DNA of 64,000 nt, taken from contig JACPEA010000002.1 of NCBI GenBank assembly GCA_016183765.1, positions 299,832 to 363,831 of the forward strand, in the 5' to 3' direction. The DNA is from Bacteroidota bacterium (lineage in GTDB: Bacteria; Bacteroidota; Bacteroidia; Chitinophagales; Chitinophagaceae). Shown in pieces: positions 10,358 to 41,097 of this stretch; positions within the stretch are counted from its first letter, which is position 1; each line of letters opens with the position of its first letter. Made by a program: the position numbers and the translations under genes. A model generated the notes under the pieces. That model saw only the letters and a program-made list of their open reading frames with translations, had not been told where the DNA came from and searched no databases.

Positions 10358-10360
10358 GGT

Positions 10361-10558
10361 AGTTAAAATTCAAAAGTCAAAAGTCAAAAATAAGAAGTTA
10401 AAACAGAGTTGTGCGGGGGTAGGATCAAAATTAGAACAATACTGGCAGTGGGTATAAAATTTTACCAATTGCATAAGTAATGAGTATCAACAAAACGGAA
10501 GCTATAAAAAGTCTACATTAGCTGTTACCCTTTACTTTTTAGTTTTGACTTTTTACTT
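10361..10558. repeat. Heptamer inverted-repeat tract, locus A
   Basis: The left tract is six heptamers in register (10361-10402, consensus ARTYAAA). The right tract is four heptamers (10531-10558, consensus TTTRSTT), the reverse complement of the same words. Between them lie 128 bp of unique sequence with no gene. The right tract ends 5 bp before the stop codon of the LutA-like gene, and the left tract touches the start of the EVE gene. The interior holds a possible minus-strand -7 box (TAATTTTG at 10426-10433) that could serve the EVE gene. The left tract shares 22 bp with locus D at 24.5 kb. Confidence 0.75.
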
Positions 10559-10562
10559 ACGC

Positions 10563-13491: not shown

Positions 13492-13511
13492 GTAAGCTGA
13501 ATTTTAGAGGG

Positions 13512-13520
13512 GCAAATATA
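13512..13520 (-). promoter_or_regulatory. Bacteroidota -7 box for pdhA
   Basis: Minus-strand reading TATATTTGC, an exact TAnnTTTG match, 21 bp upstream of the GTG start of pdhA. The heptamer tract of locus B starts 7 bp further upstream and would occupy the -33 region. Confidence 0.6.
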
Positions 13521-13526
13521 GGGATA

Positions 13527-13611
13527 GAATGATGAATATGGAACAAGGAATATCGAACAGGGAATGTCGAAGGGCTAAGTATAGTGCCATTTATCCTTCG
13601 ACATTCCCTGT
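13527..13611. repeat. Heptamer tract and long hairpin, locus B
   Basis: Seven consecutive heptamers, each starting with GAA, occupy 13527-13575 without a phase break. The last two and a half form one arm (13557-13573) of a perfect 17-bp inverted repeat whose other arm is 13595-13611, with a 21-nt loop. The right arm is followed by TTTTT. The structure lies 40 bp downstream of pruA and directly upstream of the pdhA promoter, so it may end pruA transcription. Confidence 0.8.
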
Positions 13612-13650
13612 TTTTTGCCTGAATTATGGGTAGAGCAGGCAGGATGATTC

Positions 13651-19363: not shown

Positions 19364-19371
19364 GGCTGTTG

Positions 19372-19469
19372 GTTAAAAAGGTTAAAATGGTTAAAATAGT
19401 TAAAAGGGTTAAAGTAGTTGCAGGAGTTTTTACCACCTCGACCACTTTAACCCTTTTAACTATTTTAAC
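19372..19469. repeat. Nonamer inverted-repeat tract between convergent genes, locus C
   Basis: Five 9-bp units in register, each starting GTTAAA (19372-19416), are followed by three units of reverse-complement type ending TTAAC (19443-19469). Arms 19390-19415 and 19444-19469 are perfectly complementary over 26 bp with a 28-nt loop. The tract begins 9 bp after the lepA stop and ends 5 bp before the stop of the convergent gene. It could act as a two-way terminator. It differs from the other loci in having a 9-bp rather than a 7-bp period. Confidence 0.85.
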
Positions 19470-19474
19470 TCTCT

Positions 19475-35934: not shown

Positions 35935-36456
35935 TTGAAGACGATATTATCCGAGCAACAACTGGCATTGACCGTTAAAAGACTGGCACACCAGATACTG
36001 GAGAACAACCTGCAGTTAACCGATACCGTCATCATCGGCCTTCAGCCGCGTGGCGTATACCTCAGCGACCGGATCGTACACGAACTGAAAACGATCGTAG
36101 CGCCTGAACTGGTGAAATATGGCAAACTCGACATCACTTTTTACCGTGATGACGTGCGCAAGAGCCTGCACATTGCCAACCAGACCGATATTCCGTTCAG
36201 CATTGCCGAGAAAAAAGTGGTATTGATCGACGACGTTTTATATACCGGCCGCACCATACGCGCGGCCCTGGATGCATTGCTGGATTTCGGCCGTCCCTCA
36301 AAAGTGTCGCTTTGCGTGCTGGTGGACCGCCGTTTCAACCGGGAACTACCCATTCAGCCCGATTATGCCGGCAAGGTCATCGATACCATCATTTCGCAGA
36401 AAGTGAAAGTGAACTGGCGGGAGAAGGACGGAGAAGATGCCGTGGTCTTGATTTAA
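35935..36456 (+). CDS. pyrR: PyrR: pyr operon regulator / uracil phosphoribosyltransferase
   Basis: 173 residues from a TTG start (35935); this matches the conserved family beginning (KTILSEQQLALTVKRLAHQI) and no in-frame ATG precedes it. PRTase fold with the PRPP loop VVLIDDVLYTGRTIRAALDA (residues 96-115), LQPRGVYLSDRIVHEL, FYRDD and the C-terminal LVDRRFNRELPIQPDYAGK. In Bacillus it binds pyr mRNA leaders when UMP is high; no PyrR-binding anti-antiterminator was found here, so regulation is uncertain. The natural partner pyrB is separated from it by a four-helix-bundle element that begins at its stop codon. Confidence 0.95.
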   Translation: MKTILSEQQLALTVKRLAHQILENNLQLTDTVIIGLQPRGVYLSDRIVHELKTIVAPELVKYGKLDITFYRDDVRKSLHIANQTDIPFSIAEKKVVLIDDVLYTGRTIRAALDALLDFGRPSKVSLCVLVDRRFNRELPIQPDYAGKVIDTIISQKVKVNWREKDGEDAVVLI

Positions 36457-36461
36457 AGATC

Positions 36462-36531
36462 CAAGGTGCAAGATTCAGGGCACAAGATCCAAGGTACAAG
36501 ATTCAGGGTGCAAGATTCAAGGTGCAAGGTA
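36462..36531 (+). repeat. Left heptamer tract of locus F
   Basis: Ten heptamers without a phase break, consensus CARRNNN, preceded by a partial unit that overlaps the pyrR stop. In pairs they give 14-bp units (AAGATYCARGGYRC) repeated five times. Confidence 0.9.
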
Positions 36532-36614
36532 GAGGACGGGAATGCCATGGTACTAGTGATGAGGGGTGTGTGAAAGCGACTGTTTTTGGGAAATGGTATA
36601 CAAAATCTATTTAT

Positions 36615-36959
36615 ATGTCCCGGGAATTGGAAGATCGGTTCAGACAATTTGCGATTCGGGTACGAGATTTTTGCTTGCAGCTTAACCGGGATGTGATTAA
36701 CCGGGAATATATCAGTCAATTGATCAGGTCAAGTGGGTCAGTCGCCGCGAATTATTTGGAAGCATCTGATAGTTTAGGCAAAATGGATGAGCTGATGAAG
36801 CTGAAAATATCCCGCCGGGAAGCCAAGGAATCAATGTATTGGCTCCAATTAATCCTGGTATACGAGGATGGACAATTGGAATCAGAAAGACAGATGCTCC
36901 TATCAGAAGCAGATCAAATTAAAAAAATCCTCTCCGCCATCATCCAAAAATGCACATAA
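36615..36959 (+). CDS. Four-helix-bundle protein (23S rRNA-IVS / Avd-like family)
   Basis: 114 residues from the ATG at 36615 (MSRELEDRFRQFAIRVRDFC); the frame is open further upstream, but that part is translated repeat and pyrR overlap. Four amphipathic helices and the family signature ISQLIRSSGSVAANYLEASD plus REAKESMYWLQLILVYEDGQ match the TIGR02436 four-helix-bundle family. Members are encoded in 23S rRNA intervening sequences and, as Avd, in diversity-generating retroelements, where they bind nucleic acid and reverse transcriptase. No reverse transcriptase is present here. The stop lies 4 bp before the right heptamer tract. Base composition is more AT-rich than pyrR and pyrB. Confidence 0.88.
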   Translation: MSRELEDRFRQFAIRVRDFCLQLNRDVINREYISQLIRSSGSVAANYLEASDSLGKMDELMKLKISRREAKESMYWLQLILVYEDGQLESERQMLLSEADQIKKILSAIIQKCT

Positions 36960-36963
36960 TTCT

Positions 36964-37089
36964 CCCGAATCTTGTGTCTTGTGCCCTGAATCTTGTTTCT
37001 TGTGCCTTGAATCTTGAATCTTGTGCCTTGAATCTTGTTTCTTGTGTCTTGAAACTTGTGTCACGTGCCTTGAATCTTGTTTCATGTTT
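36964..37089 (-). repeat. Right heptamer tract of locus F
   Basis: Eighteen heptamers in register, consensus CTTGNNN (the first is CCCGAAT, the last CATGTTT), i.e. the reverse complement of the left tract's words. Variants alternate (TGT, TGC, AAT, TTT in the last three positions) without being simple copies of one unit. Confidence 0.9.
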
Positions 37090-37099
37090 TAGAAAACAT

Positions 37100-37107
37100 T
37101 ACCTTTG
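37100..37107 (+). promoter_or_regulatory. -7 box for pyrB
   Basis: TACCTTTG fits TAnnTTTG and ends 7 bp before the pyrB ATG. It lies just outside the heptamer tract, so pyrB can be expressed independently of pyrR despite the inserted element. Confidence 0.5.
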
Positions 37108-37114
37108 ATTTTTA

Positions 37115-38041
37115 ATGAAACTATCTACCAAACATCTCCTTGGTATCAAAGATCTCAACAGGGAAGATATTCAGTTAATTCTCTCCACTGCACAGCAATT
37201 CAAAGAAGTTTTACAAAGGCCGGTCAAAAAAGTTCCTTCACTCCGTGATGTGACCATCGTGAATCTCTTTTACGAGAATTCCACCCGTACCCGTATGTCT
37301 TTTGAGCTGGCAGAACGCAGGTTGTCTGCCGATGTGCTCAATTTTGCCGCCAGTAGTTCCTCTTCGGCAAAAGGAGAGACCCTGCTGGATACGGTGAATA
37401 ATATCCTGAGCATGAAAGTGGATATGGTGGTGATGCGTCACAGTGCTTCCGGCGCACCGCATTTCCTGGCCAAACATATTCCTGCCGCCATTGTGAATGC
37501 CGGTGACGGTATCAATGAACACCCCACCCAGGCCCTGCTGGATGCCTATTCCATGCAGGAGAGACTGGGCAAACTGGAAGGGCTGAAAGTGGCCATCATC
37601 GGAGATATCATGCATAGCCGTGTGGCATTGAGCAATATGTACCTGCTGAAGAAGATGGGTGCCGAGATCATGGTAGCGGGGCCGCCCACGCTGATCCCCA
37701 AATACATTGCCGAAGCATTGGGCGTAAAAGTGGAATATAACCTTAAGAAAGCCCTCCAGTGGTGCGATGTGGCCAATGTGCTCCGCATACAGCTGGAGCG
37801 CCAGAACCAGCCGCTGTTCTCTTCCCTACGCGAGTATAACCTGGCGTATGGTATCAAAAGAAAAGTACTGGAAAGCCTGGGTAAAGATATTGTGATCATG
37901 CATCCGGGACCCATTAACCGAGGGGTGGAGCTGGACAGTGATGTGGCCGACGGACCTTATTCCATCATCCTGAACCAGGTAGAGAACGGCGTTGCGGTAA
38001 GGATGGCCGTACTGTACCTGCTGGTAGGCAGGGAACAGTAA
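37115..38041 (+). CDS. pyrB: Aspartate carbamoyltransferase catalytic subunit
   Basis: 308 residues, catalytic-chain length. Signatures: carbamoyl-phosphate site FYENSTRTRMSFELAERRLS, SSSSSAKGETLLDTV, MRHSASGAPHFLA, NAGDGINEHPTQALLDAYSM, IIGDIMHSRVALSNMYLLKK and the aspartate-binding end MHPGPINRGVELDSDVAD. No pyrI is adjacent. A PyrC-like pseudo-enzyme 10 kb away could be a structural partner, as in class A enzymes of pseudomonads (inference). Confidence 0.97.
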   Translation: MKLSTKHLLGIKDLNREDIQLILSTAQQFKEVLQRPVKKVPSLRDVTIVNLFYENSTRTRMSFELAERRLSADVLNFAASSSSSAKGETLLDTVNNILSMKVDMVVMRHSASGAPHFLAKHIPAAIVNAGDGINEHPTQALLDAYSMQERLGKLEGLKVAIIGDIMHSRVALSNMYLLKKMGAEIMVAGPPTLIPKYIAEALGVKVEYNLKKALQWCDVANVLRIQLERQNQPLFSSLREYNLAYGIKRKVLESLGKDIVIMHPGPINRGVELDSDVADGPYSIILNQVENGVAVRMAVLYLLVGREQ

Positions 38042-40192: not shown

Positions 40193-40597
40193 ATGAAAAA
40201 GCTATTAGTAATGACCGGTTTTTTGCTGGCGACGGTGTTCGTAGTAAAGGCACAGCAGCCCAAACCGGAATGGGTAACCATTAAGTCGGCCAACCTGCGT
40301 TGCTGGGAATGTAAAGAACGCCTGGACAGGTACCTGCTGATGGAGAACAAAGCCCAAATGGAAAGTGGTATGATGCAGTGGAAGATCAACCTGTTGCAGG
40401 GCGAGATCAAGGTACAGTTCCTGCCAGACCGTACCAATGCCCCGGCCATCAAAGCCGCCCTGAACAATGCCGGTTTTGATGCAGATACCGATAAAGCCGA
40501 ACCCGAAGCTTACCAGAAATTACCCCCCATCTGCAAACGCGCAGAAGATGGCGGAGGCCCGCAGAAAGGCAAACCCTGTCATGTGCAGCCGTATTGA
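40193..40597 (+). CDS. Secreted heavy-metal-associated (HMA)-like domain protein
   Basis: 134 residues from the ATG at 40193 (MKKLLVMTGFLLATVFVVKA, a clear signal peptide). One HMA-like beta-alpha-beta-beta-alpha-beta domain follows, with CWEC in SANLRCWECKERLDRY in place of the usual CxxC metal loop, and INLLQGEIKVQFLPDRTNAP. A Cys near the C-terminus (PPICKRAEDGG) and a final Cys-His (CHVQPY) may add metal ligands. The family is frequent in Bacteroidota beside metal-handling genes, though none is adjacent. The stop codon is the first word of a heptamer repeat tract. Confidence 0.75.
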   Translation: MKKLLVMTGFLLATVFVVKAQQPKPEWVTIKSANLRCWECKERLDRYLLMENKAQMESGMMQWKINLLQGEIKVQFLPDRTNAPAIKAALNNAGFDADTDKAEPEAYQKLPPICKRAEDGGGPQKGKPCHVQPY

Positions 40598-40984
40598 ATA
40601 TTGAATGATGAGCAAGGAATGTTGAACGCTGAAGCAGAGAGCTTTGGCGTTTTTCATTTTGAATAGCGGAACAGAGGAACAGATGAGCAAGGAACAGACG
40701 AAGGGAATATTGAATAATGCGCAAGGAATTTTGAACGCTGAAGCAGAGAGCTTTGGCGTTTTTCATTTTGAACAACGGAACAGATGAACAGAGGAGCAAG
40801 GAACAGACGAAGGGGGGATATTGAATGATGAACGCTGAAGTGAAGAACTTTGGCGTTTTTCATTTTGAACAGATGAACAGATGAACAAGGAATAGACGAA
40901 GGGAGGGGGAATATTGAATAATGAATAAGGAATTTTGAACGCTGAAGTGGGAGACTTTGGCGTTTTTTTTTGTGTTGTTAGAGG
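40592..40984 (+). repeat. About 110-bp unit repeated four times, each with a terminator-like hairpin, locus G
   Basis: Copies begin near 40597, 40706, 40817 and 40910; copy 3 is shorter and copy 4 is cut. Each copy starts with heptamers of NNNTGAA type and then has an 11-bp stem with a 5-nt loop, AACGCTGAAGC...GCTTTGGCGTT, followed by TTTT. Copies 3 and 4 change AAGC/GCTT to AAGT/ACTT on both sides, which keeps the stem paired. The first heptamer contains the stop codon of the HMA-like gene. Confidence 0.88.
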
Positions 40985-41002
40985 AAAAATAGCCTGCCGA
41001 AC

Positions 41003-41097
41003 CCCTCACGCTTCAACATTCATCTGTTCCTTGTTCATCTGTTCCTCTGTTCAGAAAACATTCATCATTCCTTGCTCGTCTGTTCATCATTCAAAGA
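41003..41097 (-). repeat. Inverted counterpart of the locus G repeat
   Basis: The sequence consists of reverse-complement words of 40597-40984 (ATTCATCTGTTCCTTGTTCA, and TTCATCATTCCTTGCTCGTC). It runs into the stop codon of the LEA14-like gene. Together with the tandem units it fills the whole 489-bp gap between two convergent genes, which otherwise holds nothing recognisable. Confidence 0.85.

Follow-up and report, generated by a model that had tools for sequence, protein, structure and literature searches.

The intervening sequences (IVSs) of rRNA are excised by RNase III without religation. In Coxiella, the 23S rRNA IVS is 428 nt long, carries an S23 open reading frame, has a 28-bp terminal stem with tandem GACAGAT heptamers in its 5′ arm and is excised by RNase III, and its S23 protein is seemingly not made; the presence of rRNA IVSs is patchy, followed by vertical inheritance (PMC4990558). 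The unit that we describe here has an S23/Avd-type four-helix-bundle gene (fhb) and lies between pyrR and pyrB. It shares with the 23S rRNA IVSs of Coxiella, Leptospira and others the S23 reading frame, the terminal inverted repeats or long stem, the heptamers (in the 5′ arm in Coxiella) and a patchy and then vertical distribution. It differs in its place between protein-coding genes, in its 13 copies per genome with 13 different words and in that its excision by RNase III is a prediction. The 23S rRNA IVS is the closest known system, but since our unit does not lie in 23S rRNA, it is IVS-like and not an rRNA IVS. A sequence-only reading of this DNA had stated that no element of this design had been described, which is not quite so, as the Coxiella IVS combines a hairpin, an S23 reading frame and tandem heptamers in the 5′ arm (PMC4990558). 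In the openly licensed PubMed Central literature, we found no publication that connects fhb genes outside rRNA with heptamer arms.

Heptameric tandem repeats have been described in Xanthomonas (GGGAATC), Nostoc (GGGGA(T/C)T) (PMC4692102) and Beggiatoaceae (TAACTGA) (PMC4679880). Xanthomonas has about 70 inverted GGGAATC pairs, with the G-rich strand just after stop codons and the complement just before start codons (PMC4692102). All three resemble the tracts reported here in their period of 7 and mostly intergenic position, and those of Xanthomonas also in their inverted pairs and polarity. They differ in that one word dominates each genome whereas fhb elements use many, and the papers state no connection of the heptamers to fhb (PMC4692102, PMC4679880).

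Two further systems invite comparison. Avd, a protein of diversity-generating retroelements, has the same four-helix-bundle fold, but unlike such a retroelement the fhb genome gave no match to the RVT_1 reverse transcriptase anywhere, which makes a similar retro route unlikely; mobility via a resident RVT_1-type enzyme was rejected for this genome on that ground. REP/RAYT systems likewise consist of a single gene with flanking inverted short palindromic DNA in intergenic positions, but their protein is different: our unit holds the fhb gene only, and the Y1 (RAYT) genes, with four matches above cut-off in the genome (one truncated by the contig end), lie elsewhere. The flanks of Y1 genes that we read are REP-like and not heptameric. 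Y1 transposases could in principle act on the hairpins.

The unit between pyrR and pyrB

All coordinates in the list below are positions in the window, the whole 64,000-nt stretch of DNA that was analysed.

35935–36456, + strand: pyrR, upstream host gene (NF003549, E = 1e-58); stop codon TAA at 36454–36456
36456–36531, + strand: left arm, ten CARRNNN heptamers (CAAGGTG, CAAGATT, CAGGGCA and others) at 36462–36531; found by TRF (36456–36531); pairs with the right arm
36532–36614, + strand: spacer between left arm and start codon
36615–36959, + strand: fhb gene (S23/23S rRNA IVP/Avd-like family), 114 aa, four helices; ATG at 36615, TAA at 36957–36959; assigned by TIGR02436, PF05635 and an AlphaFold2 model
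36964–37087, + strand: right arm, about 17 CTTGNNN heptamers, reverse complement of the left-arm words
37100–37107, + strand: TACCTTTG, presumed −7-type promoter box of pyrB, outside the element
37115–38041, + strand: pyrB, downstream host gene (NF002032, E = 4e-120)

The 114-codon four-helix-bundle gene that the sequence-only reading had placed between inverted heptamer tracts in the pyrR–pyrB interval was confirmed, as were the identities of pyrR and pyrB (NF003549, NF002032). The ten left heptamers were also recovered. On the right, where eighteen had been claimed, we counted 17 units, 14 of them with an exact CTTG, and reach 18 only by adding a degenerate first unit (TRF: period 7/21, score 172). 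The left tract does touch the pyrR stop codon, but the proposed overlap amounts to one base only. The pyrB box lies just beyond the right tract, as had been proposed; we take it to be a −7-type promoter box of the form TAnnTTTG, and most empty pyrR–pyrB sites carry TATCTTTG or similar as their box. A GGTATAAATACC-type motif is present in the spacer of other copies but is not evident in this one. Rfam gave no match over the pyrR–pyrB element.

The two arms are complementary at 72–78% over 41–81 nt. Their arm score was 39, as compared to a mean of 12.1 for dinucleotide shuffles (maximum 23, n = 300) and 8 in direct orientation, and the two tracts together are predicted to form a long RNA stem in the transcript (z = −4.9). 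Left and right flanks paired better with their own partner than when mixed (p = 0.007). Across the loci compared, tracts have a period of 7 with harmonics at 14 and 21, and less often a period of 8. The arms are polarized: the C-poor arm follows the upstream stop codon and the G-poor arm precedes the next start codon, with the left arm C-poor in 74 of 79 cases (C 0.10 vs G 0.26). Co-change of the arms between genomes at shared sites was modest (p = 0.02), and a strict co-evolution between genomes was rejected on this value. We found no target-site duplication or fixed insertion sequence, and the ends of the element are not base-exact.

The protein encoded between pyrR and pyrB matched TIGR02436 with E = 2e-17 (63 bits, cut-off 24) and PF05635 with E = 5e-11 (43 bits, cut-off 33.8). 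AlphaFold2 modeled the monomer as a clean four-helix bundle (pLDDT 94), and the solved folds nearest to this model were 2rld (TM 0.77), then 2gsc and then 4dwl; the first two are S23-family structures and the third is Avd. A few fhb copies are broken, and the genes have a dN/dS of ~0.1, by which measure the fhb gene is under purifying selection. It had been suggested that the protein may recognize the repeats. As recognition of a word, this is not supported: between sites within a genome, the words differ as much as they do between genomes (arm cosine 0.079 vs 0.087). A Mantel-type comparison across sites gave a weak word–gene linkage (rho 0.14), the signal was absent between sites of one genome, and word recognition was rejected as a candidate. 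Since words are site-specific within one genome, any recognition by the fhb protein would be of shape, and recognition of the hairpin shape is possible.

Copies, empty sites and distribution

The genome holds 13 fhb genes (14 profile matches, two of which are one frameshifted gene). All 13 have co-oriented neighbors, often within one operon, among them sdhA–sdhB, nuoF–nuoG, hemB–hemL, hypC–hypD and paa, where neighbor names other than pyrR, pyrB and the methyltransferases below were read off the translated sequence without a database match. In every copy, a left tract soon follows the upstream stop codon and a reverse-complement tract stands ahead of the downstream start codon. The word differs from copy to copy; examples are GGTAATT, GGTTAAAA, GAATGAGTG, GGAACAGATGAAC and CAAAAGTC. 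When left flanks were compared with reverse-complemented right flanks, a copy's own right flank beat nearly all others, and there was no match in direct orientation. Own arm scores were 16–47 for the 13 copies, with shuffle means of ~10–15; 59 other genes of the window scored 10.8 on average and 17 at most (p = 1e-8 against the 13 copies).

Some copies show features of their own. Three related fhb elements with three different words lie in one paa (phenylacetate) operon (G000 C6:16535–20619, L009). A palindrome, AG[GC]GTATAAATAC[GC]CT, is found upstream of three fhb genes (G000 C1:502754, C10:86337 and C11:146937) and also just upstream of two Y1-transposase-like genes (C15:536272 and C12:228570; L331, L332). 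The pattern GTATWWATAC has 38 sites in the genome, many of them in gaps, about 1.7 times the reversed-pattern control. The GTATAAATAC palindrome was rejected as a common operator, being present in only 11 of 51 left spacers and in many unrelated places. In the left spacers of secA–deoC and of G043 C66/G049 C379, a stem-loop followed by a T-run (for example AAAATGAGTTTG...GAACTCATTTTTTTATG) abuts the fhb start codon in the manner of a terminator or attenuator within the operon.

The pyrR–pyrB interval measures 658 bp here and 20–99 bp in 29 relatives (an apparent 143 bp in one of them reflects a shifted pyrR end). The fhb gene is absent from this junction in all 29 readable relatives, and the closest one, G049 (98% identity in PyrB), has in its place a 99-bp hairpin that contains related CTTGTAA words but no gene. 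Most relatives are empty at two other junctions as well. The sdhA–sdhB site is occupied in three genomes (473–523 bp) and short in 26 (7–92 bp), 3 of which hold a single tract. In ten relatives, pnuC and nadR overlap by 8 bp; at this junction, two genomes carry the element, and two further ones have 200–260 bp without an fhb gene. This shows that the fhb-plus-arms unit is an insertion at gene junctions, which relatives still have in the empty state. In the gene tree, copies from one site mostly cluster (sdhAB, hypCD, nuoFG), i.e., they were inherited in place, and the number of such copies across the genus indicates that movement is rare or old. Exceptions are the G049 secA–deoC copy, which clusters with those of another site, and the recQ copies, which arise inside the hemB–hemL group and whose words resemble the hemB–hemL words; the paa copies are mutual relatives. 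Empty sites, flanking tracts and these signs of site-to-site movement support the earlier proposal of a small selfish or mobile unit. Vertical presence in all relatives and absence of tracts from fhb genes elsewhere, the two findings that the sequence-only reading had held to speak against such a unit, were not what we saw.

Tracts accompany nearly all strong fhb copies in the genus (51 copies in 61 genomes; median arm score 24 inverted vs 11 direct) and very many across phyla. Eight weak-scoring copies of 121–125 aa at one conserved locus (L125–L131, L137) have no tracts and serve as an internal negative control; this relative of fhb may serve a separate function and be inherited vertically. 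Of the Bacteroidota genomes sampled, 225 of 297 carry the family, and tracts are visible in most of the best 30 loci. The design recurs, with a strength that depends on the locus, in 80 named loci from about ten phyla, drawn from Bacteroidota, Planctomycetota, Desulfobacterota, SAR324, Chloroflexota, Clostridia, Verrucomicrobiota, Lentisphaerota, Acidobacteriota, Nitrospirota, Patescibacteria and Gammaproteobacteria. In the named genomes, the arm score exceeded the 95th percentile of cross-locus pairs in 51 of 79 cases and the 99th in 27 of 79, and most top scorers among the control genes of the same loci turned out to be further fhb genes. Neighbors were co-oriented in 129 of 149 cases upstream and 138 of 152 downstream.

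At three loci (L161, L174 and L177), the unit lies within DNA-methyltransferase genes (Eco57I/N6_Mtase, N6_N4_Mtase). The host frame is open through the whole unit, in a frame other than that of fhb, as against 2 of 320 alternative frames over all loci; insertion into a coding gene thus need not truncate it. A homologue on a Hymenobacter plasmid (L330) is uninterrupted across the insertion point. The methyltransferase genes lie around locus position 1500–1824, and their tract-coded stretches include SVVSGQWSVAS.

Tracts without the gene

Elsewhere in the genome, about 15 places have CTTG/CAAG arrays but no fhb gene, and 5 of 24 gaps in the window contain gene-less tracts. Gene-less inverted tract pairs of short period are seen at window positions 10358–10562, 13492–13650, 19364–19474 and 40598–41086; at 40596–40967, a 109-bp unit with the same kind of words is repeated ~3.5 times. 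Being common, gene-less tracts may be an independent phenomenon. In the genus, at least 5 hits to arrays of two words (CTTGNNN and a reversed pattern) were obtained in 5 of 12 fhb genomes and 0 of 49 others, a difference (Fisher p = 1e-4) that is partly post hoc, because the reversed pattern, which proved to match the tracts of two other genomes, had been intended as a control. Hits numbered 0–1 in the 49 genomes that lack a strong fhb gene, large ones such as G010 among them. Several fhb-bearing genomes contain no array of either word, and array abundance tracks fhb number loosely. The distribution suggests that heptamer tracts depend on the fhb protein.

Explanations of the element and its meaning

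We consider it probable that the unit is an intercistronic, IVS-like selfish element, in which an S23-type four-helix-bundle gene lies between inverted tandem-heptamer arms. Read-through from the upstream gene would transcribe the element, and the arms would pair in the transcript into a predicted stem of tens of bp. Because the anatomy is that of the Coxiella IVS, placed at an mRNA junction, the simplest interpretation is excision of the hairpin from the operon transcript as well: RNase III would cleave the paired arms as in rRNA IVSs and release the fhb message, the messages on either side would stay usable, and insertion between genes would therefore be nearly harmless. The fhb protein probably forms a pentameric ring, as do Xcc0516 (according to work cited in PMC4990558) and Avd, and would bind the hairpin by shape and not by word. 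It may assist in spreading copies of the unit or of its arms to other sites, for which hairpin-templated DNA synthesis is one possible route; since the genome gave no RVT_1 match, no resident reverse transcriptase of that type would be required. The word would be renewed through slippage and the templating of one arm on the other, which would also preserve the match between the two arms.

The abundance of gene-less tract pairs and single arrays in the genome could also mean that the tracts come first, made in intergenic DNA by slippage and hairpin-templated replication with no role for a protein, and that fhb is a passenger in safe spacers. The gene-less hairpin of G049 at pyrR–pyrB and the single tract at sdhA–sdhB in three relatives fit this, as do the heptamer arrays of Xanthomonas, Nostoc and Beggiatoaceae, for which no fhb link was made (PMC4692102, PMC4679880). 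We nevertheless find it unlikely, given that tract pairs occur in about one-fifth of the window gaps but at 13 of 13 fhb genes, that the two-word arrays are nearly absent (0–1 hits) from the 49 genus genomes without strong fhb, and that purifying selection on the fhb genes is strong. Such selection (dN/dS ~0.1) also fits a domesticated operon regulator, kept for the benefit of the host, whose protein, by binding the hairpin in the message that encodes it, would control how the flanking genes are translated or how stable their messages are. Stable residence at housekeeping junctions such as sdhA–sdhB and nuoF–nuoG in several genus genomes, the presence in 11 of 51 left spacers of a palindrome of the GTATAAATAC type and the stem with T-run before the start of some copies point the same way. 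The patchy distribution makes regulation a rather improbable explanation, with absence at pyrR–pyrB in 29 of 29 readable relatives and mostly at the two other sites tested; moreover, the host genes have unrelated functions, several of the copies are broken, and no site is common to all.

That fhb is an accessory protein of another system (diversity-generating retroelement, toxin–antitoxin or defence), in operons by chance, seems very improbable. The fold is common to Avd (4dwl) and a relative matches PHROG 3206, but the genome lacks RVT_1, the neighbors are housekeeping genes and no partner gene recurs at the copies examined; on this last point, the toxin–antitoxin and defence readings were rejected.

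The IVS-like selfish element could be part of something larger. It is conceivable, if on balance doubtful, that fhb genes in hairpins form one ancient, phylum-crossing selfish class, of which rRNA IVSs are a special case, and that the fhb protein drives the writing and renewal of heptamer arms. If fhb does write the arms, the bacterial heptamer repeats that still lack an explanation would stem from it, among them gene-less tracts and SVVSGQWSVVSG-type-repeat proteins. Three loose ends meet in these elements: the multi-copy S23/IVP proteins, whose function is unknown, the so far unexplained rRNA intervening sequences and the over-represented bacterial heptamers. Should the link be borne out, this very common gene family (225 of 297 Bacteroidota genomes) would become a testable class of mobile elements that reside within essential operons and leave them unbroken, and the origin of bacterial heptamer repeats would become an experimental question.
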